DNA of 64,000 bases from Chloroflexota bacterium. GTDB lineage: Bacteria; Chloroflexota; Anaerolineae; SpSt-313. Positions 8,492 through 53,130 of this stretch are shown piece after piece (the stretch's first letter is position 1; each line of letters starts with the position of its first letter). Where the stretch lies: the NCBI GenBank assembly GCA_029553955.1, contig JAKPJZ010000074.1:62001-126000 (forward strand), written 5' to 3'. A program made the translations under genes and the position numbers. Below the pieces are notes generated by a model. The model ran no database searches, was not told the origin of the DNA, and was given only the letters and a program-made list of their open reading frames with translations.

Positions 8492-8740
8492 CTGTCACTG
8501 CGAGTAACCCAGGGTCTCGGAACCCTGTGCCCAGCACACAGAACCTTGACCTGTCATTGCGAGTATCCCATGCCGCCGCGCGGCATGTGCAAGCACAGAA
8601 ACTGCGACTGTCATTGCTTCGTCGGCTGCGGCCTCCTCGCAATGACAAACGGGAAGTTTCTCAACAGCCGCAGCGAAGCAGTCTCCTGTCTGGCGTGGAG
8701 ATTGCTTCGCTGTGCTCGCAATGACGGCCTGAAACGTGCG
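8492..8740. repeat. TCATTGCGAG-type repeat cassettes
   Basis: At least four consecutive units begin or end with TGTCATTGCGAG or its complement CTCGCAATGACA, interleaved with AACCCAGGGTCTCGGAACCC and CCATGCCGCCGCGCGGCATG hairpins. The same cassettes recur at 16694 and 52858. Confidence 0.8.
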
Positions 8741-9533: not shown

Positions 9534-10376
9534 TCAGGGCTGGCTGGGGATGATCAACCGCTGCCCCGGGCGAACGAGGGTATCGCCCAAGTCGTTGGCG
9601 GCCATGATGGCCTCGACGCTCGTGCCGTAGCGCCTGGCAAGGGAGTAGAGCGTGTCGCCGCCACGCACCGTGTAGACGACGGGCTCGGGGGGCGGCGTGG
9701 CAGTGGGCGGCGGCGTCGCGCTGGGCGTTGGCATGGGCATGGCCGTGGCCGGGGGCACGCTGGCAGTGGGCGAGGGTAGCGCCTTGGCGGCGTGCGGCGA
9801 CGTGTAGGCGACGATAGCCATCCTCAGCAGGTGTTTGGCGTCGCCATGCTCGACGATGCTGACGCCGCTGATGACGCAGCCCGGCAGCGCTCCCTCGTCG
9901 ATGCGCGAAAGGCAGTGGATCAGCCCCGCCAACGGACCTGCGATCTGCACGTCGAGGACCCTGACGCTGTAGACGTCGTCAGCGGCGCCTTTCTGCACCG
10001 GCTGGCTCTGCAGGCTGACGATCTCGACCCCACTGGCGCCCGCATACTCGTAGAGGCGGGTGGGCATCTCGGCGGCCTGACCCTCGCTGAGGAGTATGCC
10101 TGCCGCCTGGGCGAGCGCGGCCTCGGCGGCGGCCCTGCGCCTCTCCGCTGCGCCTGGGGCGAGGGCCTGGGCCTCGCGCGCCTTGGCGAGCGCTGCGTCG
10201 GCTGCCGCCACCTGGGCCGAGAGGTCCATCCACGCGCGGATGCTCGGGACGAGCCCGCGCGCCGCAATGAGCCCGTAGGCCACGATGATGGCCGCGATGG
10301 TGCACGCGGCCAGCAGCGAGTAGAGCCGGTCGCCGCTGGGCAGCTTGCCCTGCAAATCGTTCAGGGCATCCTTCAT
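9534..10376 (-). CDS. PilO-like membrane protein with C-terminal LysM domain
   Basis: 280 residues: one membrane helix at about 20-42, a coiled-coil/alpha segment rich in Ala and Glu (50-95), a PilO-like ferredoxin-fold region (about 100-195), a Pro/Thr linker (200-230) and a LysM domain at 233-280 (VVYTVRGGDTLYSLARRYGT...). PilO partners PilN in the alignment complex of type IV pili; LysM binds peptidoglycan. The fusion could anchor a surface filament base to the cell wall. It overlaps the preceding PilN-like gene by ATGA and is the last gene of the archaellum operon. The PilO assignment rests on fold-like pattern and gene order, not on a strong motif. Confidence 0.7.
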   Translation of the reverse strand: MKDALNDLQGKLPSGDRLYSLLAACTIAAIIVAYGLIAARGLVPSIRAWMDLSAQVAAADAALAKAREAQALAPGAAERRRAAAEAALAQAAGILLSEGQAAEMPTRLYEYAGASGVEIVSLQSQPVQKGAADDVYSVRVLDVQIAGPLAGLIHCLSRIDEGALPGCVISGVSIVEHGDAKHLLRMAIVAYTSPHAAKALPSPTASVPPATAMPMPTPSATPPPTATPPPEPVVYTVRGGDTLYSLARRYGTSVEAIMAANDLGDTLVRPGQRLIIPSQP

Positions 10377-11608
10377 TGCGGCCCCGCTTTGGCCACCACG
10401 ACGATCTCGAACTGCACTGAGCTGGTTTCTTGAGCGCGCTCGCTCATCGGGAGCGGGAGCTGCGCCACGCCCCGCACGACCAGTAGCGGTGCGGCCAGCC
10501 CGGGCCTCCGCGAGGAGGCCGGCAGCGCGCCGCTCGGCCCGGAGCTGGTCGCTGTCGGTGTCGGCGTGCTCGTCGGCGTTGGCGTGGCCGTCGGCGGCAG
10601 CAGCGTGTTGGTGGGCGTGGGCGGCACGGGCGTGCTTGTCGGCGGCACGGAGGTGGGCGGCACCGGCGTGGCTGTGGGCAGGTACTCCTCGGCCGTCAGG
10701 CGGTACGACATCTTGGGGCCGTAGCTGCCGCGGTTCTTGACCTCGACGACGGCGCGCACGTCGGCGCTGCCCACCTGGAAGGCAACCTCGGAGCGCAGCG
10801 TGCCGGGTTTGACATCGTCGTTGACAAAGGTGGCGTCGCCCACCGTCACCGCCAACAGCGTATCGACACCCGGCGCCAGGTCGGACGTAAAGACCCGGTA
10901 GAACCTGCCCGCCTTGGCCAGAAAGCGGACCTGGTCCACATCGTCGGCAGGGCAGAACGCGCGCTGCTGTGCCTGGCTCAGAAAGATGTCGCGGGGCTCG
11001 GCGTCGTCGGGCTCGAAGGCATCGTGCCAGTCGGGCGTCGGCGTGGGCGTCGGGCTGGCCTCGGTGGGCGTGACGGCCGGCGGGGCGAATGGCCTGGCGA
11101 CGGTCTTCATCGATTGCACGCTGACGCGCTCAAAGAGGGCCGACGCTTCGAGCGCACGGACATAGGCGGCGACGGCGGCTTCGTTGGCGGCCGTGCCCTT
11201 GAGGGTGATCTCACGGCCGTTCTGTGTGACGGCAAGCAGGGCGAGCTGTGCCGGGTCATAGCTGCCGATGGCCGCGATCACGGCCGGCCATACGACGCGG
11301 CCGGCGGCAATCGTCGGCTTGATGGCGGCGACCCTGGCGGCTGCCGTCTCGACCCTGGCGACGGCGCCCGACGACTCGAGCTCGTGGGGCTGCGGCGTGG
11401 CCGCCTGCGCGGCGGCCGTCTGCAGGGGCGCGAGTTGCGCCTGCAGGGAGGTCGCCTGGCTGCGTATGCTGGCTGAGGCCAGGTTGAGGGTGAGCAGGAA
11501 CACGGCCAGTGCTGCGGCGACCAGCCACAGCACGACCGTTCTGGCTGAGAGCCTCGCGGGCTCATCCTCGATAGGGGCCTCCAGGTCATACGGAGCCGAC
11601 GAATCCAT
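10373..11608 (-). CDS. PilN-like membrane protein with Pro/Thr-rich region
   Basis: 411 residues. A single membrane helix at 24-46 is followed by an extracytoplasmic coiled coil and a PilN-like segment (VWPAVIAAIGSYDPAQLALLAVTQNGREITLKG...AVAAYVRALEASALFERVSV). A middle beta-rich domain with DAFEPDDAEPRD and DVDQVRFLAKAG resembles pre-peptidase C-terminal type modules. Then come VPPTSTPVPPTPT repeats and a hydrophobic tail. PilN-type proteins form the periplasmic alignment complex with PilO. It sits between the three-domain membrane protein and the PilO-LysM gene, with 2-nt and 4-nt junctions that imply translational coupling. Its presence next to archaellum genes is unusual. Confidence 0.65.
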   Translation of the reverse strand: MDSSAPYDLEAPIEDEPARLSARTVVLWLVAAALAVFLLTLNLASASIRSQATSLQAQLAPLQTAAAQAATPQPHELESSGAVARVETAAARVAAIKPTIAAGRVVWPAVIAAIGSYDPAQLALLAVTQNGREITLKGTAANEAAVAAYVRALEASALFERVSVQSMKTVARPFAPPAVTPTEASPTPTPTPDWHDAFEPDDAEPRDIFLSQAQQRAFCPADDVDQVRFLAKAGRFYRVFTSDLAPGVDTLLAVTVGDATFVNDDVKPGTLRSEVAFQVGSADVRAVVEVKNRGSYGPKMSYRLTAEEYLPTATPVPPTSVPPTSTPVPPTPTNTLLPPTATPTPTSTPTPTATSSGPSGALPASSRRPGLAAPLLVVRGVAQLPLPMSERAQETSSVQFEIVVVAKAGPQ

Positions 11609-11610
11609 GG

Positions 11611-12753
11611 TTAGCCTGCCTCAAGGCTGCGTCGATGCGGGATCCTCTGCAACTGGGCGAGTGCCTCGTTTGACTGCACCACCAGGTCGCCGATGTCTAC
11701 GCCATCGGCGATTTTGACCAACGCCTCGCGGCGGGGGTCCATAAAGTCTACGTCGCCCAAAAGCTCCGACAGGATGGCCTGCGGGTCGCTCGTTTCAGGA
11801 GCGTCGCCCTCGGCAGCCTGTACATCGTGCCCGGGGTCTTGGCCCTGCTCGGGTGCGGCGCTATGGCTGTCGTTACCCTTGCCGCCGTCTGGCCCTGCGG
11901 CAGCCGTGCTGCCCTCCTGCTTCGACCCAGCCGCGGTTGCGTCGGCCGGGCCGCTGTCGCCGTCGCTCAGGCGAACGCGCTGCACCTGCCGTGCCGGCGC
12001 AGGCTGAGAGCCGGCCTGCTGGCCCTGCGCCTGCGCTGCGTCCTGTTGCTCAGCCTGTTTCTGGGCTGGCGAGGAGGCGGCCTGGGCCTGCGCGCTGTCG
12101 TCGTCGAGGCCCTGCAGCCAGGGCTTGGGCGCGGCGGTGCCTCGTGCCGCGAGCGGCCCATCCGCATCGTCCTCGGCCAACTGCTCGAGCCCGCGCTCTG
12201 CCGCTCTGCGGCCATAGCGTGGCGGGGCAATCGCCAGGGCAGCCGCGGCGGCCAGCAGCACCAGGGCCAGCGCGGCGCTCCAAAAGACGGCCCTCTGCCG
12301 GAGCAGCGTCGTCAGGAGCGACGGCGGCGAGTCGGGCAGGGCCAGGGCCTCGCGCAACGCCGCCAGCGACTCGCGCGCCTCGGGGCTCGCACTCTCCCTC
12401 TCTATGGTCGTCAGCAGGGCCGCCAAGGCTTCGGCATTCCACCCGGCAAGGTCCTTTTTGGCCTGGGTCAGGCTGCCGTTGCGCGCCAAGTCGGCCGCCA
12501 CGAGTGTGACATAACGTCCCTGGCGGCCAGCTTCCAGCTCCCAGGGGGCACAGCCGGCGACGCGCGCCGGCCACAGCCACCAGCCGATCGCCAGCCAGCC
12601 GACGAGCAGGCCGGCGAGGAAGATGAGGATGGCGACATACTTGTCGAGGCCGCCGGGAACGGCCGGGCGCCTTGTGTGTCCCTTGGCCGCCCGCCCGCCG
12701 GCGGCAGGGCTGCCGTCATCGGCCAGCGTGTCTGCGAGGTCTTGGGCTTGCAT
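11611..12753 (-). CDS. Two-helix membrane protein of unknown function, archaellum operon
   Basis: 380 residues, not recognised. Membrane helix 1 lies at about 38-61 and helix 2 at about 155-176; between them is a mostly helical domain containing YVTLVAADLARNG, a pattern I associate with Chloroflexota membrane proteins. After helix 2 comes a Gln/Ala-rich low-complexity stretch, then a C-terminal segment SDPQAILSELLGDVDFMDPRREALVKIADGVDIGDLVVQSNEALAQL that looks structured. The track ORF begins far upstream in the arlJ gene; ATG 12753 is preferred because it follows the arlJ stop by 2 nt and begins the protein-like sequence. Position suggests an archaellum-specific component. Confidence 0.6.
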   Translation of the reverse strand: MQAQDLADTLADDGSPAAGGRAAKGHTRRPAVPGGLDKYVAILIFLAGLLVGWLAIGWWLWPARVAGCAPWELEAGRQGRYVTLVAADLARNGSLTQAKKDLAGWNAEALAALLTTIERESASPEARESLAALREALALPDSPPSLLTTLLRQRAVFWSAALALVLLAAAAALAIAPPRYGRRAAERGLEQLAEDDADGPLAARGTAAPKPWLQGLDDDSAQAQAASSPAQKQAEQQDAAQAQGQQAGSQPAPARQVQRVRLSDGDSGPADATAAGSKQEGSTAAAGPDGGKGNDSHSAAPEQGQDPGHDVQAAEGDAPETSDPQAILSELLGDVDFMDPRREALVKIADGVDIGDLVVQSNEALAQLQRIPHRRSLEAG

Positions 12754-12755
12754 CG

Positions 12756-14249
12756 TCAACCTACTCTGAAGAACGCCTGGACGAGCGGGGGCATGACGAC
12801 CAGGCAGACGCCCGACAACGCCAACAGGATAGAGAAGTAGAACGACCCCTTCAGAAGGTGCCCGCCATCGGCGGCGGCAATGGCGAAGGCGTTGACCAGC
12901 GCCAGCACGACGACCATGGCATAGGTGAGGGTCATGACGGTGCCCAAGATGGGGCTGGCGAAGCTGAGCATCGGGAGCTGCAGCGAGGCCGCGGCCTCTT
13001 CGGCCTGCGAGCTCGCGGCGGCCGCGATGAGGTCGGTGAACGTGCGGATGACCTCCAGGATGATGATCATCAGGGCGCAAACGGCCACGTGCATGACGAT
13101 GGTCAGATTGGAGAACGTCGAGGAAATGCCGCGCCGCCTGGCGCGGAGCATGACCTCGGTGGTGGCGAACTGGCTGCAGAGCGAGCCCACCGTGGCGGTG
13201 TCGCTGCCGAGCTTGATGGCATCATAGAACACGGTGATGGTATCGTTGATCAGCTTGCTGCCGGTCTCGACGGCGAATTGCTTCCAGCAGAGGGCCGGCG
13301 CGATGGCGGCCTTGAAGCGCCAGCCGAGCCGCTTCAGGTCGGGCAGCAGGCTGGGGAAGGAGGCCGGATCGAGCTGGTCGAGGGCCGCCGCGAGTGTGGT
13401 GCCGGTCGACGCCGCCACGGCGCCAAAGGTGCGCAGGAAGGGGCCAATCTCCCGGTCCTTCTTCTCCACTTCGAGCGAGGCCCGCAGGCTGACGACGCCC
13501 AGGGGCAGCAGGGCCAGGCCGGCCACGATGAGGAGCCAGCCCAACGACACTCTGAGCAGGCCCAGCAGGAGGCAGAGGCCGAGCGTGGCCGGCAGCGATG
13601 CCTTGGCGAGCCGCAGCGCCAGGCGCTGCAGGGCCGGCCCTGTGGCAACGAACAGGGCCTCGGCCTCGCAGGGCGCGGCGCGCGAGATGATCCAGGCCCC
13701 GCCGGCGCTCGCCAGCACCGCGGTGATGATCAGGCCGGCGCTCATGCCGGCGCCCAGGTCGTAGATCATCGTCGAGGTCAGGTTGACGATGACAATCAGC
13801 GTCGCCGAGACGACAAGAGCGCCGTAGGCATCGGTCCACCTGGTGAGCGATGAGAGGTTGCGGTCATATTGCTTCTCGTAGACGTTGCCCTGCACCTCGG
13901 CTTCCTGGGTTAGGAAGGCAACCTCGGGGTGGCCCGAGGAGAGCGCATCGGCAAAGCGCAGGAGCAACGTCTTCATGGCCTCCGACGTGGACTTTTGGCC
14001 GACCGCAGTGCACGCGGCAGGATAGTTGTAGCCCAGCTTTTCGCAGAGCAGATGGACACGCTTAAAGTACTCGGCCGGAGAGCTGACCAGCCGTGCGGCA
14101 AGCTGGAAGAGCTGGCCTCTGGCAATGCCCGCCGACGCGATCGCCGACATGTAGATCAACTGGTAGAAGAGGTCAAACTCGGACGGTTCCTTAAACGAGA
14201 CCTTGCTTGCGGGCCTCGGCAATGACCTTGAAGAGCTGATGGAAGCCAT
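12756..14249 (-). CDS. arlJ: Archaellum membrane platform protein ArlJ (T2SF/GspF family)
   Basis: About 497 residues of polytopic membrane protein containing two GspF-type cytoplasmic helical domains (KTLLLRFADALSSGHPEVAFLTQEAEVQGNVYEKQYDRNL and FLRTFGAVAASTGTTLAAALDQLD...) separated by groups of hydrophobic helices, with a final membrane cluster. This is the layout of ArlJ/FlaJ, the platform on which ArlI works. The start is uncertain: ATG 14249 overlaps the arlI end by 59 nt and TTG 14222 by 32 nt. The track ORF start at 14681 is out of frame inside arlI and is rejected. Tight spacing to both neighbours supports an operon. Confidence 0.85.
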   Translation of the reverse strand: MASISSSRSLPRPASKVSFKEPSEFDLFYQLIYMSAIASAGIARGQLFQLAARLVSSPAEYFKRVHLLCEKLGYNYPAACTAVGQKSTSEAMKTLLLRFADALSSGHPEVAFLTQEAEVQGNVYEKQYDRNLSSLTRWTDAYGALVVSATLIVIVNLTSTMIYDLGAGMSAGLIITAVLASAGGAWIISRAAPCEAEALFVATGPALQRLALRLAKASLPATLGLCLLLGLLRVSLGWLLIVAGLALLPLGVVSLRASLEVEKKDREIGPFLRTFGAVAASTGTTLAAALDQLDPASFPSLLPDLKRLGWRFKAAIAPALCWKQFAVETGSKLINDTITVFYDAIKLGSDTATVGSLCSQFATTEVMLRARRRGISSTFSNLTIVMHVAVCALMIIILEVIRTFTDLIAAAASSQAEEAAASLQLPMLSFASPILGTVMTLTYAMVVVLALVNAFAIAAADGGHLLKGSFYFSILLALSGVCLVVMPPLVQAFFRVG

Positions 14250-15873
14250 CGACGCCTCCCCTCCTGTGCAGCCTTTCCAGGATCCTGGCCCGGCGCTGCA
14301 GCTCCTGGTAGATCTCTCTCTTGCGGCTCTCCGGCAGGTTGCGCCTGCGGGCGAGCTTTTCCTCGAGGACGTAGCTGTTCTTGTTTCCCGGGAACTCGAA
14401 GGTGTCGTCGTCAGGCTTCCAGCGAAAGGTCGTGATGAATGAAAAGCTATCGGACCGGGTCTCATACTCCACGATTTCGTTGATGCTGAGTACCCGGCGC
14501 ACCATCCTGCCGTCGGGGCCGCGGACGGCAGACTGGATGACGACGACGTCCAGGTTGTCGATATAGGTCTTGGGCACGTTGATTGGGTTGCCGGTGAGGC
14601 GCTGGATGAGGCGCTGCACCGAGGCGGCATGGAAGGTGGCCATGACGCCGTGCCCCGTCTGCATGGCCTGGAAGGCGACATTGCCCTCGATGCCGCGGAT
14701 TTCGCCGATCATGATGCGGTCGGGGCGCTGCCGCAACGCCGCCTTGAGCAGGGTGAACATGTCGATCGCCGTGCTCCGTTCCGAGTTGCCCGTGTCGCGG
14801 ACGACCTCGCGGAGCCAGTTGGCCTGTGGCATTTGGAGCTCGGGCGTGTCTTCGATGCTGATGACCTTGGCATCGGGGATGATAAAGGTCGTCAGCGCGT
14901 TCAGCAGGGTCGTCTTGCCCGAGGCCGTCTCGCCGCAGACAAAGACGTTGAGCCCTTCCTCGATGACCATCCAGAGGTAGGCGGCCATGGTATAGTCGAG
15001 GCTGCCGAAGGCGATCAACTGCACGATGCTGAGCGGCTCTTCGGCGAACTTGCGGATGGTAAAGTTGCTGCCGCGCTTGGCAATGTCGCGGCCGTAGACG
15101 ATGTTGATGCGTGAGCCGTCGGGCAGCACGGCGTCGACGATGGGGTTGCGCACCGTGACCGGCCGCTTGATGCGCTCGGCCAGCCAGAGGACGAACTCGT
15201 CGAGCTCATCCATGCACGAAAAGACGATGGAAGCCTGGATGCTGCGAAAGATCTTGTGCTCGATAAAGATGTGCCCCACGCCGGAGCAACTGATGTCTTC
15301 GATGTAGGGGTCTTGGATCAGCGGCTCGAGCACGCCGAGCCCCACCTTGTCACGGAGGGTCAGGTAGCGCACGGCCTCGATCTGCTGCGGGGAGACATGC
15401 ACCTGCCCGTTGTTCTCCCCCGGGCGCATGGTGCAGACGTGGCCGAGGCACTTGAGAAAGACCGCGGCGCGCTCGTCATCTTGGGCTTGGCCAATCTCCT
15501 CGGCCCAGTCGAGCAGCCGGAAATCGACCTCCTGCATCAGCCCGCCCAGCTCGACCGTCAGGTCGGGCGTGATGGGGATGTAAAAGTCGCGCTCGCCGAC
15601 GGCGTCGGGGTAGATGTGCACATAGTGCCCGTCTTTGCTGGGGTAGATCAGGTTGCGGCCGGGGAGGCTGCCGAGCGAGCGGCTGAGCCGGGGGTAGTAC
15701 TGCGGAATGCCGATCTCGGCGACCGGCAGGCCTTCGAGGTACGCGCGCAGATACGGCTTCGCCTGCGCGGCCTCTTGCAGCGCGCGGGGAAACCGGCCGA
15801 GTTGGTTGGGTGCAGAGCCTCGCCTGCGCCCCATGACCCGCTCGCGGGGAAAAGGTAGCCTGATCTCTGGCAT
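14191..15873 (-). CDS. arlI: Archaellum motor ATPase ArlI (type II/IV secretion ATPase)
   Basis: 560 residues. The N-terminal domain is followed by the RecA-like ATPase domain: Walker A GETASGKT at 314-321, an Asp box around 340 (ISIEDTPELQ), Walker B RIMIGE at 386-391 and the His box TGHGVMATFHA at 406-416. The sequence style (LPDGSRINIVYGRDIAKRGSNFTIRKF) is that of archaeal FlaI/ArlI rather than PilB or CpaF. It would power filament assembly and rotation. It is flanked by arlH 8 nt upstream and overlaps arlJ. ATG 15873 is used; Met14 is an alternative. Confidence 0.92.
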   Translation of the reverse strand: MPEIRLPFPRERVMGRRRGSAPNQLGRFPRALQEAAQAKPYLRAYLEGLPVAEIGIPQYYPRLSRSLGSLPGRNLIYPSKDGHYVHIYPDAVGERDFYIPITPDLTVELGGLMQEVDFRLLDWAEEIGQAQDDERAAVFLKCLGHVCTMRPGENNGQVHVSPQQIEAVRYLTLRDKVGLGVLEPLIQDPYIEDISCSGVGHIFIEHKIFRSIQASIVFSCMDELDEFVLWLAERIKRPVTVRNPIVDAVLPDGSRINIVYGRDIAKRGSNFTIRKFAEEPLSIVQLIAFGSLDYTMAAYLWMVIEEGLNVFVCGETASGKTTLLNALTTFIIPDAKVISIEDTPELQMPQANWLREVVRDTGNSERSTAIDMFTLLKAALRQRPDRIMIGEIRGIEGNVAFQAMQTGHGVMATFHAASVQRLIQRLTGNPINVPKTYIDNLDVVVIQSAVRGPDGRMVRRVLSINEIVEYETRSDSFSFITTFRWKPDDDTFEFPGNKNSYVLEEKLARRRNLPESRKREIYQELQRRARILERLHRRGGVDGFHQLFKVIAEARKQGLV

Positions 15874-15880
15874 GGGCGAT

Positions 15881-16660
15881 CTACCCTTGGGCCTTGTTGA
15901 TCGGGATTATCCTCATGCCCAGCCCCGGTTCCACCTCAAAGCTGACGATGTTGCCGGTGTTCTTGCTCGCGCCTCTGACCTTGGACACTTGCATGACCTT
16001 GACCAGCTTGGCACCCACCTCCTCGGTGCGCAGGCAGAGGTGCGCATCGCACAGCGAAGTGATGCGCACGAGCAGCTCCGACGAGACGGCATGGGAGTGG
16101 ATGATGTTGACGATGGTCATGCTCTCAGAGCACAGCCGCTTGCAGCCCTCGAAGAAACCAATGACGTCCTCGGGCGGTGTGGCGAGGATGAAGGGCGTGA
16201 GCGCATCGACGAAGACAATGTCGCTGCCGCGATAGTGCTCGGCCCTGATCGCCTCCAGCAGGGCGCCCAGGCAGTCGCCCTCCGAGCGTGCGACTTCCAT
16301 GGGGTAGATGCGCAGCCGGCGCAGCAGCATAAAGTCGAGAATGTCGATGTTCAGGCTCTGCATCTGCTTGATCAGGCTCTTCACCGTGTTCTCGGTGGTA
16401 AAGAAGGCGAGGCGAAAGCCGTCGTAGAGCGAGCCCCACATCATCTGCTGCGATAGCACCGACTTGCCCGCATGGGAATGGCCGTCGATCAGGGTCAGCG
16501 AGCCGATGGGGATGCCGCCACCCATCTTGTTGTCGATCTCCATGTTGCCTGTGGACACCACGCTCTTCCTGGGCTGGTCGCCGGCAGCCTGCTCAGCGCC
16601 GGAGGCGCTGAACGTCTGGCGTGCCTCGCCGATGAGCGTGCCTACAGAGGGTGCTGGCAT
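15881..16660 (-). CDS. arlH: Archaellum regulatory ATPase ArlH (KaiC-like)
   Basis: 259 residues of RecA/KaiC-like fold. Walker A GHSHAGKS is at 60-67, preceded by MGGGIPIGSLTLIDG, and a Walker B-like segment DIVFVDALTPF follows at about 147-157. It has the FlaH-specific features NIIHSH and a C-terminal VKVMQVSKVRGASKNTGNIVSFEVEPGLGMRIIPI. In archaea ArlH binds ArlI and controls motor assembly through ATP binding. It is the strongest single indicator that the cluster is an archaellum and not a Tad or type IV pilus. Confidence 0.93.
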   Translation of the reverse strand: MPAPSVGTLIGEARQTFSASGAEQAAGDQPRKSVVSTGNMEIDNKMGGGIPIGSLTLIDGHSHAGKSVLSQQMMWGSLYDGFRLAFFTTENTVKSLIKQMQSLNIDILDFMLLRRLRIYPMEVARSEGDCLGALLEAIRAEHYRGSDIVFVDALTPFILATPPEDVIGFFEGCKRLCSESMTIVNIIHSHAVSSELLVRITSLCDAHLCLRTEEVGAKLVKVMQVSKVRGASKNTGNIVSFEVEPGLGMRIIPINKAQG

Positions 16661-16693
16661 TCCTGCCTCCCTGCCTACCCGTGAGCGTGCATA

Positions 16694-16862
16694 CCGTCAT
16701 TGCGAGTGACCCAGGGTCTCCGAACCCTGTGCCCAGCACAGAACCTTGGCCTGTCATTGCGAGGAGGCGGCCGCAGCCGCCGACGAAGCAATCCCCAGGT
16801 TGCGAGCGCAGCGAGGCAACTCCAATGCCCGACGCGGAGACTGCGCTGCGCTCGCAATGACA
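16694..16862. repeat. TCATTGCGAG-type repeat cassettes inside the archaellum operon
   Basis: Units GTCATTGCGAGTGACCCAGGG, TGTCATTGCGAGGAGGCGG...ACGAAGCAATC and CGCTCGCAATGACA fill the arlH-arlF gap, where other gene junctions in the operon are a few nt. The first unit is nearly identical to the one at 8500. Confidence 0.82.
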
Positions 16863-16878
16863 GTGTGAGCGCTCAAGC

Positions 16879-17406
16879 TTACTTGACAAAGGCCAGCGAT
16901 GCGGCGATGCCGTTGGGCGTCGAGACGGTCGCCACGCCGGCCGTGCCAACCTTCACCGGGGGCGAGACCTTGACGCGGATGACCAGCTCTTCGCCGGGGT
17001 TCACGATGCCCGGGTCCTGGACCTCCGGGAGGGCTTTGGCGGCGTCGTGGTAGATGCCCTATAGCGCCCACTGGTTCTGCCCGGGGTCGGCCGCCTGGGC
17101 ATACGGGTACCACCCGGCCATGCGGCCGGTGGGCGTCACGTACTCGAGCACGACGTCCCACTGCCGCAAGTCGGAGAGCTTGACGCTGCCATCGTTCTTC
17201 AGGGTGATGGTGACCACGTCGCCGGTGGCCTCCATGCCGGCGCCGACGGGCGACAGGCTGGTGCGCGAGCGCTCCAGAGCGCGCTCATCCATGGCGCGCC
17301 ACGACTCCAGCAGGCCGGTTTGCGCCGAGATGCAGGCATAGGTCAGGGTCAGCATGCTGAGTAGGACGAGGATGATGATGAGTGCCGCTGCTACCACCGT
17401 CTCCAT
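16879..17406 (-). CDS. arlF: ArlF-like archaellum protein interrupted by an in-frame TAG
   Basis: The track ORF (17059-17406, 115 residues) ends at TAG, but the same frame stays open for 59 more codons to TAA at 16879, and those codons read as the missing end of the protein (GIYHDAAKALPEVQDPG...NPGEELVIRVKV...VSTPNGIAASLAFVK). The PGE and TPNG motifs match the C-terminus of the adjacent paralogue 17410-17886 (PGERYFF...TTPNGVS). N-terminal residues 1-25 are a membrane/pilin-like helix and the rest is a beta-sandwich, as in ArlF, the periplasmic stator partner that binds the S-layer in archaea. The stop is thus a single nonsense change, an assembly error or readthrough. The repeat insertion lies directly downstream. 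Confidence 0.75.
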
Positions 17407-17409
17407 GGC

Positions 17410-17886
17410 TCACCTGTTGGGGCTAAAGTAGTACTCGGTCGAGACGCCGTTGGGCGTGGTCATCTTGAAGAAATAGCGTTCGCCCGGCACGAGGACGTAG
17501 CTGAGATCGACGGTGACCTTGAGGGTGCTGCCGGGCTTCCAATAGGTGTCGTTCTCCACGGCGTATTCCCAGTGCGGGTCGCCACTGTCGTGAGGGATGC
17601 GCTGATAGTTGCCCTCCGGGCCAAAGAAGACATCGCAACGCTCGACGGCCTTGATGGAAGAGGCGCCGATGTTCTTGACCCAGACGAGGGCGACGTCGGT
17701 ATAGTCGGGCGACGTACAGGCGTGGATCACCGCGAGCTGGCTGGAGAAGCGCTCATCGATGCGCGCCTTCATGCCGACCAGGGCATTGCTGCTCTGTATG
17801 ACCGCCGGATAGACGGCGCTGAAGAGCATCGTGGCCGCAATGACCCCGGCGACGATCAGGAGGGTGGTGACGATGGCCTTATCCAA
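17410..17886 (-). CDS. arlG: ArlG/ArlF-like archaellum stator protein
   Basis: 158 residues: an N-terminal hydrophobic helix (MDKAIVTTLLIVAGVIAATMLFSAVYPAV) then an extracytoplasmic beta-sandwich with KNIGASSIKAVERCDVFFGPEGNY and PGERYFFKMTTPNGVSTEYYF. This fits the FlaG/FlaF group whose pair forms the stator of the archaellum motor. MDKAIVT at the N-terminus is typical of that group. It is 3 nt from the downstream arlF-like gene and overlaps the upstream ArlD-like gene by 8 nt. Confidence 0.8.
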   Translation of the reverse strand: MDKAIVTTLLIVAGVIAATMLFSAVYPAVIQSSNALVGMKARIDERFSSQLAVIHACTSPDYTDVALVWVKNIGASSIKAVERCDVFFGPEGNYQRIPHDSGDPHWEYAVENDTYWKPGSTLKVTVDLSYVLVPGERYFFKMTTPNGVSTEYYFSPNR

Positions 17887-18571
17887 CCTTCACCTCCTCC
17901 ACCAGCCGGCGGGTGGCCGCGACGTCGACATCGCGCCCCAGGGCCTCGTTCAGCTTGAGGAGGAGCTCGAGCACCACGCGCAGGCGGACACGCTCCGCCG
18001 GCGGCTCGTCATCGCTGAGCTCGATGAGCTGCAGCAGGGCATCTCTGACCCCCTGGTCGAGATAGCCTGCGTTCGCATAGATCTCGATGGCCCGGATGGT
18101 GCGCTCTTTGCCAATCTTCTGCACGCTGCCGCCGGCCCATTCGGTCAGCCGCGCCACAAGGCCCCAGTCGGTGCTCTCGGCCTCCGGCGGCGCGAGAGAG
18201 GCTGCGCCGGTGCCCTCCGGCGGCAGCGCGGCCTCGGGGGCGTCGCCTGCATCCGACAATGACCTCAAGGCGTCGCTGCGCACGAGCGAGCCCACCCTCA
18301 GCGCCGGCGCATCCACGGCAGGGGCTGGCTCCAGCTCTGCCATGGTGACCCGCTGTACGCCCGAGAACGAAGCCGCGCCGTGTTGCGACCCATTGCCCCT
18401 GAGCGCAGGCGCGGCGGCGTCGGGGGCAGGCGCCTCCTGGGCCCTGAGGTCGGGATAGTAGTGGAAGAGGATCTGCTCCTGGATCTCGAGCAACGTGTTG
18501 CGGATCTGGTCCTTCAGGATGCCTAGTTCGTCCTCAAGGGTCTTGACTCTGTTTTCCAGTGCCACAGGCAT
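17879..18571 (-). CDS. ArlD/E-like cytosolic archaellum protein
   Basis: 230 residues. A short N-terminal coiled coil (LENRVKTLEDELGILKDQIRNTLLEI) and an Ala/Pro-rich linker lead to a C-terminal helical domain (TDWGLVARLTEWAGGSVQKIGKERTIRAIEIYANAGYLDQGVRDALLQLIELSD) that resembles the FlaD/E domain, in which a W..fL..kvG...l..Yy..gWI..V...Ll pattern is conserved. In archaea ArlCDE links the motor to the chemotaxis adaptor CheF; there is no chemotaxis gene in this window. The assignment is by pattern and position. Confidence 0.65.
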   Translation of the reverse strand: MPVALENRVKTLEDELGILKDQIRNTLLEIQEQILFHYYPDLRAQEAPAPDAAAPALRGNGSQHGAASFSGVQRVTMAELEPAPAVDAPALRVGSLVRSDALRSLSDAGDAPEAALPPEGTGAASLAPPEAESTDWGLVARLTEWAGGSVQKIGKERTIRAIEIYANAGYLDQGVRDALLQLIELSDDEPPAERVRLRVVLELLLKLNEALGRDVDVAATRRLVEEVKVG

Positions 18572-18660: not shown

Positions 18661-19260
18661 CTAGTGGAAATCGATCACAGTGTCGATGTAGGAGGGCGTC
18701 GTCTTTTGGATCAGCAGCACGCCGCCGCGCGGCGGTTTGACTTCGATGGCGAAGGTCGTGTCCGTGCCGAGCGTGATGCCGTTCTTCGTATCGGTCAGGT
18801 CGATCGTGATCTTGGCCAGTTCGCCGTCCTCCAGCAGGTTGTCTTCATCGTGCCTGACTGGCCAGTCCACCGACCACTGGAGGCCGGAGACTGACTTCTC
18901 GGCATCGCGGTAGTCGATGACGACCTTGTTGGTGCCGGAGATGGTGCTGGTCAGGTCGATGGCCGTGCCGCCGGCGACATTGCCCACGGTGAACACGATG
19001 TTCTTGATTTGGCCCTCTCCAGCGGCGCCAGGGGTGTTCTCGGTGGCGAGGACGGCTCCGCGCAGCTCGAGCGAGGCGCTGACCTCCTGCAGCCCAGAGA
19101 GAATGGCTTCCTTGGCCTTCTCTGTCGAGGTCGTGCCAGCCGAGAGGACCGTGAAGGCAAAGACGGCGGCGACCACGACGAAGGCGATCAGGATGATGGC
19201 GGTTTCGAGGGCGGTGATGCCGCTCTCATCCCTAAAGAACCTCTTTAGCCTGTCGTACAC
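18661..19260 (-). CDS. arlB: Archaellin (archaellum filament subunit)
   Basis: 199 residues with a class III signal peptide: basic leader MYDRLKRFFRDESG, predicted cleavage after Gly14, then ITALETAIILIAFVVVAAVFAFTVLSAG, the signature helix of archaeal flagellins. The C-terminal end VKPPRGGVLLIQKTTPSYIDTVIDFH also matches archaellin. GTG 19260 follows AAAGGAG. A prepilin peptidase must process it but none is in this window. First gene of the archaellum operon. Confidence 0.94.
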   Translation of the reverse strand: MYDRLKRFFRDESGITALETAIILIAFVVVAAVFAFTVLSAGTTSTEKAKEAILSGLQEVSASLELRGAVLATENTPGAAGEGQIKNIVFTVGNVAGGTAIDLTSTISGTNKVVIDYRDAEKSVSGLQWSVDWPVRHDEDNLLEDGELAKITIDLTDTKNGITLGTDTTFAIEVKPPRGGVLLIQKTTPSYIDTVIDFH

Positions 19261-52857: not shown

Positions 52858-53130
52858 CAGAGACTTGGGCTTGTCATTGCGAGCCGCAGCGAAGCAATCT
52901 CCACGTCGGGCATTGGGGATTGCTTCGTCGGCTGCGGCCTCCTCGCAATGACAGTCGCAGTCTCTGCTTGCACAGGCTGCACCACGACCTGGGATACTCG
53001 CAATGACAGTCGTCGTTTCTGTGCTTGCACAGGCTGCGCCGCGGCCTGGGGTACTCGCAATGACAGTCGCAGTTATTGTGCTTGCCCATGCCGCCGCGCG
53101 GCATGGGATACTCGCAATGACAGGCTGAGT
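52858..53130. repeat. TCATTGCGAG-type repeat array
   Basis: About five units joined head to tail, alternating CTCGCAATGACAGTCGCAGT-like ends with CTTGCACAGGCTGCGCCGCGGCCTGGG hairpins at a spacing near 57 bp. The last ends 30 bp before the amine-oxidase ATG. Confidence 0.82.

Follow-up and report, generated by a model that had tools for sequence, protein, structure and literature searches.

A PilN-PilO pair with a LysM domain in the archaellum operon of a Chloroflexota bacterium, conserved within one class and probably derived from the type IV pilus

The closest described counterpart of the locus reported here is that of Litorilinea aerophila, where PilN and a PilO carrying a LysM domain are encoded beside the archaellum operon and were suggested to anchor the machine in peptidoglycan (PMC12488501, 2025; PMC13319060, 2026); a PilN/PilO scaffold was proposed in the second paper. 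In the pilus, PilN and PilO are a membrane-anchored pair, and PilO has been reported to contact the platform protein PilC (cited in PMC13319060). We analysed a stretch of 64,000 nucleotides (hereafter the window; contig JAKPJZ010000074.1 of assembly GCA_029553955.1) from a Chloroflexota bacterium, in which the archaellum (arl) cluster is followed by genes for a protein X, PilN and PilO-LysM. Our preferred interpretation, which we consider probable, is that the PilN-PilO pair came from a Chloroflexota type IV pilus and was incorporated into the arl operon within one class (probably Anaerolineae), most likely as a static collar and wall anchor around the platform protein ArlJ and the filament base.

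The arl cluster of the window, to whose minus strand the coordinates of its genes and domains below refer, runs from arlB (19260) to arlJ (end 12756) and continues unbroken into the genes of X (11611..12753), PilN (10373..11608) and PilO-LysM (9534..10376, the last gene of the operon). The three open reading frames thus stand directly behind arlJ, as the original prediction, made from the sequence of the window, had it. The gaps behind arlJ are 2 bases wide, and the PilN and PilO genes overlap by 4 bases (ATGA). The arrangement is not a chance one, because it is conserved in dozens of genomes.

The PilO-LysM protein (280 amino acids) was assigned by its reading frame, fold match and LysM domain. 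Its AlphaFold2 model (predicted local distance difference test 78) consists of a transmembrane helix, a long coiled coil and an alpha-beta-beta-alpha-beta-beta domain; this ferredoxin-like domain (H-E-E-H-E-E in the model according to DSSP) is formed by residues 104-192 (9801..10067). The top matches of the model in the PDB are the PilO chain of the type IVa pilus machine model (3jc8, E=1.7e-5) and PilO of P. aeruginosa (2rjz, E=3.5e-4), so the predicted fold agrees with solved PilO and bears out the PilO call. At the sequence level the PilO part alone has no match to Pfam PilO (PF04350) and a weak one to GspM of the type II secretion system (E=8.7e-5), while 7 of the 34 relatives match PF04350 (best E=1.7e-6). 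The LysM domain (residues 235-277, 9546..9674) follows a Pro/Thr-rich linker (about residues 199-232), again as predicted; it matches PF01476 with E=1.3e-15 (57.5 bits, cut-off 20.9) and has 4uz2 as the best LysM match in the PDB (E=2.6e-20). The searches for PilO used the core (residues 1-195), since a query with the whole protein was swamped by LysM matches.

PilN (411 amino acids) was assigned by its family match, a motif check and reading of the sequence. Residues 119-171 (11096..11254) match Pfam PilN (PF05137, E=4.2e-10, 40 bits, cut-off 22.8), which upholds the PilN call, and the same family is matched by 37/37 members scanned. The protein is composed of a short cytoplasmic tail, a transmembrane helix, a coiled coil, the PilN domain, one EPDD (PPC-like) unit with Pro/Thr linkers and a final strand. 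The elements of the AlphaFold2 model, which covers a stretch without the last strand, fit a transmembrane helix, a coiled coil and a ferredoxin-like domain. From one to four EPDD units stand between the third and the last strand in the window's PilN and in about half of its relatives; the remaining relatives have only a short linker before the last strand, which is conserved as V-E-F-V-I-x-x-E-L-K. The C-terminal strand of the window's protein (FEIVVVAK, 10388..10420) is kept in members with and without the insert. Judged from the relatives lacking it, the PPC-like unit with its linkers appears to separate strands 3 and 4 of the PilN fold as an insert. The label PPC-like rests on the repeated EPDD pattern, Pfam PPC being called in only 1/37 PilN proteins. 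The pilus-linked PilN of three loci (L170-L172) carry such units as well, which shows that the insert is not confined to archaellum loci.

Genomes were surveyed for the same arrangement, nearly all of them metagenome assemblies. ArlI was found in 21/396 genomes of the class and in 10 genomes of other classes within a phylum sample of 400. A scan of GTDB genomes for ArlJ gave 38 loci (Anaerolineae, Anaerolineaceae, Caldilineaceae, Aggregatilineales and unclassified Chloroflexi), from whose taxa the class with PilN-PilO in the arl operon was taken to be Anaerolineae. Profiles of PilN, PilO and X were built from the first loci and then run on all loci; after duplicate contigs were merged by hand, 44 class loci remained, 9 of which end too early to be scored, and contig ends limit the counts of adjacency. 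PilN is part of the arl cluster in 34/35 informative class loci (a hand count), together with PilO wherever the contig is long enough. The pair stands once upstream of arlB, not behind arlJ (G542, L085:15672-18007), and the PilO of that locus carries two LysM domains after repeated TPR-like stretches. In the remaining informative locus (G555) the pair was found about 25 kilobases away, near a second archaellin gene, which rules out that this genome lacks it. PilO was present in 3/3 genomes sampled from the taxonomic order of the window. Almost all archaellum loci of this class thus include PilN and PilO, and none of those sampled in other classes does. This near-universality suggests that the pair genuinely contributes to seating the motor in a cell with a wall.

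In PMC13319060 the system appears rarer. The survey given there comprises 244 archaellated Chloroflexota, of which 235 possess genes for peptidoglycan; both pilO and pilN occur in 34 of these 235, and pilO-LysM stands near archaellum genes in no more than 3, the L. aerophila proteins having served as BLASTP queries for the homologs. This figure of 3 seems too low, as is to be expected when cores whose similarity is mostly only 25-45% are searched with single BLASTP queries. The locus of L. aerophila resembles the present one in the PilN and PilO-LysM genes next to the archaellum genes, in the anchoring hypothesis and in the lack of PilM and PilQ. Our literature search for PilN, PilO and LysM together with Chloroflexi found only these two papers. 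The original prediction had called the arrangement a new adaptation of the motor: its link to the archaellum holds, while the gene pair beside the archaellum and the anchoring idea were already known. Compared with what the accessible parts of the two papers contain, the additions of this work are the profile-based conservation count, the loss of the PilM motif, the exchangeable tails of PilO, the prepilin peptidase of the operon and the X-like proteins of other classes.

The LysM domain does not belong to the motor in the way that had been supposed. It is present in 15/34 archaellum-linked PilO; several have TPR, with or without LysM, and other tails look SH3-like (L099) or lectin-like by sequence. 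A PilO-TPR-LysM protein was also found in a true pilus locus (G469), together with PilM, PilD and PilT. This rules out that LysM arose for the archaellum and means that it was inherited and not invented for the motor. Judging from these sequences, the putative wall binding by PilO is an inherited and exchangeable property, LysM being one of several tails.

Several lines point to the type IV pilus as the source of the pair. Beyond the class, the closest relatives of this PilO (27-29% identity) are encoded in pilus loci together with PilB, PilC, PilM, PilN, PilD and PilT. A tree was built from the joined PilN and PilO cores of 50 loci. All pilus-linked rows but G469 branch at its base; the archaellum label requires 6 changes on it against 13.8 in shuffles, and many forks are open. 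A single capture of the pair by the archaellum is possible on this evidence. In many relatives a gene of type IV leader peptidase (PF01478, E=2e-14 in L087) stands between X and PilN; the operon of the window is without it. As PilD also adjoins PilM, PilN and PilO in pilus loci, a PilD-PilN-PilO block may have been captured together. In one archaellum operon the genes of X and the leader peptidase are separated by that of an FHA-GAF-histidine kinase protein (L095:12805-14490); L184, L187, L188, L190 and others show a gap about as large.

The archaellum-linked pairs are devoid of the usual pilus partners. The N-terminal D-x-N-(L/I)-L-P motif of PilN docks PilM in known pili. It stands at the start of PilN in 6/6 pilus-linked proteins and in 0/36 archaellum-linked ones, that of the window included. 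The genome of the window (91.8% complete) and both family members gave no PilM, no secretin and no match of PilT or PilB strength, and PilT was above the cut-off in only one (G510) of the 17 archaellated genomes tested. Thus the system shares with the type IVa pilus alignment complex PilMNOPQ the PilN and PilO families, with the transmembrane helix, coiled coil and ferredoxin-like fold that the models show for PilO and suggest for PilN, but differs from it in having no PilM, secretin, PilB or PilT in the genome, no PilM-docking motif and additional tails of putative wall-binding type. The type IV pilus loci of Chloroflexota (G019/L054, G015/L052, G469/L170 and G510/L172) have homologous PilN and PilO, with the PPC-like inserts in several PilN and the TPR-LysM tail on PilO of G469, as described above; unlike the archaellum loci, they have kept the PilM motif and the pilus genes and contain no arl motor genes.

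The position of the pair around ArlJ is proposed from the pilus: PilO is reported to contact PilC there, and ArlJ is the counterpart of PilC. After being taken over into the archaellum operon and losing the PilM contact of pilus PilN, PilN and PilO would form a heterodimer and a ring, that is, a static collar in the membrane that encloses the ArlJ platform and the base of the filament. Their transmembrane helices and coiled coils would span the membrane and the lower periplasm, while the tails of PilO (LysM in the window) and the PPC-like units of PilN would reach into the wall and bind it in vivo. Alongside the ArlF/ArlG stator, such a collar would guide the rotating filament through the wall and fasten the machine there, and it may have a role in torque. 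It fits the gene order, the loss of the PilM motif and the published density between the membrane and the inner layer at the archaellum base (PMC13319060). In a further-reaching form, which we offer tentatively as a possibility, the pair would be a class-wide third envelope module, re-docked onto ArlJ/X after the loss of the PilM contact, that serves the motor as an anchor or bearing in the wall via exchangeable glycan-binding tails and partly takes over the contact of ArlF with the S-layer.

The same reported contact of PilO with PilC, along with the localisation of PilC by PilO (cited in PMC13319060), would also suit a pair that is mainly an assembly factor, which clamps and places ArlJ so that the machine is built at the right pole, wall binding serving only to hold it and bearing no torque. 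The position directly behind arlJ-X and the variability of the tails, in place of a fixed LysM, agree with this explanation as well. We regard it as rather unlikely, for by itself it does not explain why tails of glycan- or wall-binding type recur on PilO.

The distribution of PilO beyond the archaellum loci bears on whether the pair belongs to the archaellum at all. The PilO-core profile matches 40/337 class genomes, namely 20/20 arl-positive and 20/317 arl-negative ones (Fisher p=1.7e-21, a value that ignores shared ancestry), which agrees with the co-occurrence expected by the original prediction. It is not a strict one: the matches in arl-negative genomes are of two main kinds, pilus loci (e.g. 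G417, G601 and G527) and stand-alone PilN-PilO pairs. In one of these pilus loci (G417, L164:3571-4197), which also has PilM, PilO and a protein with three LysM domains, pilT and pilD are separated by a gene for an archaellin (PF01917, E=1.6e-24); no ArlJ was found in this genome and no ArlI in the class search, and the archaellin may be used there as the pilin of a bacterial pilus. The genome of the window itself has on contig C108 (L055:6946-8803) a second, divergent PilN-PilO pair with no adjoining arl or pilus genes, flanked by a GAF/HD-GYP-looking protein and a TPR-LysM protein.

The stand-alone loci, including this second pair with its TPR-LysM neighbour, are what one would expect if PilN and PilO served another envelope system (a remnant pilus, a Tad pilus or a wall sensor) and were merely co-transcribed with the arl genes. 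Such an explanation seems improbable to us, as the pair is found in every one of the 20 arl-positive genomes of the sample, mostly contiguous with arlJ, and most of these genomes have no pilus machinery. The stand-alone pairs are nevertheless the main unexplained point of the analysis. Of the 24 genomes with PilO at E<1e-40, 6 have neither ArlI nor ArlJ (G435, G457, G446, G660, G585 and G638). In two of these (G585 and G660, 93-94% complete) the genes upstream of the pair are unrelated and there is no archaellin, and both are placed inside the archaellum clade of the tree; here the archaellum may have been lost, or the pair may have a second use.

Together with these stand-alone pairs, which mean that PilN-PilO may work without an archaellum, the following points weigh against the collar. 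Neither PilN nor PilO was found in the arl loci of other classes (0/10, also counted by hand). More than half of the archaellum-linked PilO are without LysM. A fold search with the PilN model, in which the modelled stretch does not include the last strand, gave no match in the PDB below E=0.01. Finally, low expression was reported for L. aerophila by quantitative reverse transcription PCR (PMC12488501).

Protein X (380 amino acids) was assigned from its reading frame, from relatives behind arlJ in the class and from X-like proteins in other classes; it has no family match in Pfam or NCBIfam. Its sequence indicates two transmembrane helices, with a helical segment outside the cytoplasm and a long acidic tail inside it; a motif at the C-terminus is conserved. 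Across the class there are one or two such helices, the acidic tail and a conserved C-terminal stretch ending D-V-D-I-like. The X profile has matches near arlJ in 4/10 loci of other classes (E from 2e-3 to 2e-7, and 9e-9), and a fifth locus looks similar by eye. Of the three proteins predicted as one set, PilN and PilO hold together as a pair; X, to judge by these profile matches, is not part of it and belongs to a different set, and may be a phylum-wide archaellum component.

The cluster with arlB, arlF/arlG, arlH, arlI and arlJ is a real archaellum cluster. ArlI, the motor ATPase (14191..15873; NF058587, E=2.4e-190), and ArlH (15881..16660; NF004723, E=1.1e-73) are over their cut-offs; the platform protein ArlJ (12756..14189) matches NF004703 with E=1e-104, under its cut-off, and ArlB, the archaellin encoded by the first gene of the cluster (18661..19260), matches PF01917 with E=4.6e-24. 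These four are clear by NCBIfam or Pfam. ArlF (17059..17406; NF052590, E=2.5e-6), ArlG (17410..17886; NF052591, E=4e-6; PF01917, E=2.4e-7) and the ArlCDE-like protein (17879..18571; weak PF04659, E=0.06, with position and homology shared with related arl loci) are individually weak, their positions being kept in relatives. An interspersed repeat lies between arlF and arlH (about 16693-16863), with further copies in the window at 8494-8563 and 52872-53067 and on another contig (L055, 2938-3110).

ArlH in some of the related loci carries an N-terminal response-regulator receiver domain (L086:10516-11577, Pfam Response_reg, E=8e-23; by sequence also L082:7295-8389, L092:7663-8733, L089:6123-7190 and others). 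ArlH is longer than 330 residues in 18/51 loci; that of the window has no receiver domain. Through such a domain chemotaxis signals could reach the motor regulator directly. A single literature search found no report of a receiver-domain ArlH.

The arlF gene is ended by an in-frame TGA (17059-17061), beyond which the frame runs on to about 16879 for 59 codons of clear ArlF sequence, as seen from its translation and comparison with ArlF of L082 and L083. A frameshift is ruled out, as the interruption is an in-frame stop; it may be an assembly error of the metagenome or a real loss. ArlF and ArlG share the operon with PilN and PilO and, as is proposed for these two, span the envelope as part of the motor, but they are archaellin-derived immunoglobulin folds that hold the S-layer (PMC13319060) and have no sequence relation to the pair. 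The interrupted arlF and the LysM domain of the neighbouring PilO could be taken together to mean that a LysM collar replaces the contact of ArlF with the S-layer as the stator anchor, as had been predicted. This is very improbable in our opinion. ArlF and ArlG are kept by the motor genes in most relatives that have the 5' half of the cluster on the contig, the majority of PilO proteins have no LysM, the stop may be a sequence error, and the published envelope has layers outside the peptidoglycan (PMC13319060). Because ArlF and ArlG are retained, the data do not support the general claim that the S-layer contact has been replaced; moreover, the archaella sampled in other Chloroflexota classes do without PilN and PilO.

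The papers of 2025 and 2026 posed the question of how a motor made for an archaeal envelope can function in a cell that has peptidoglycan. The near-universal conservation of the pair, the loss of the PilM contact and the swapping of the putative wall-binding tails turn what was a speculation on one species into a testable rule for a whole class, and correct the published impression that the arrangement is rare.

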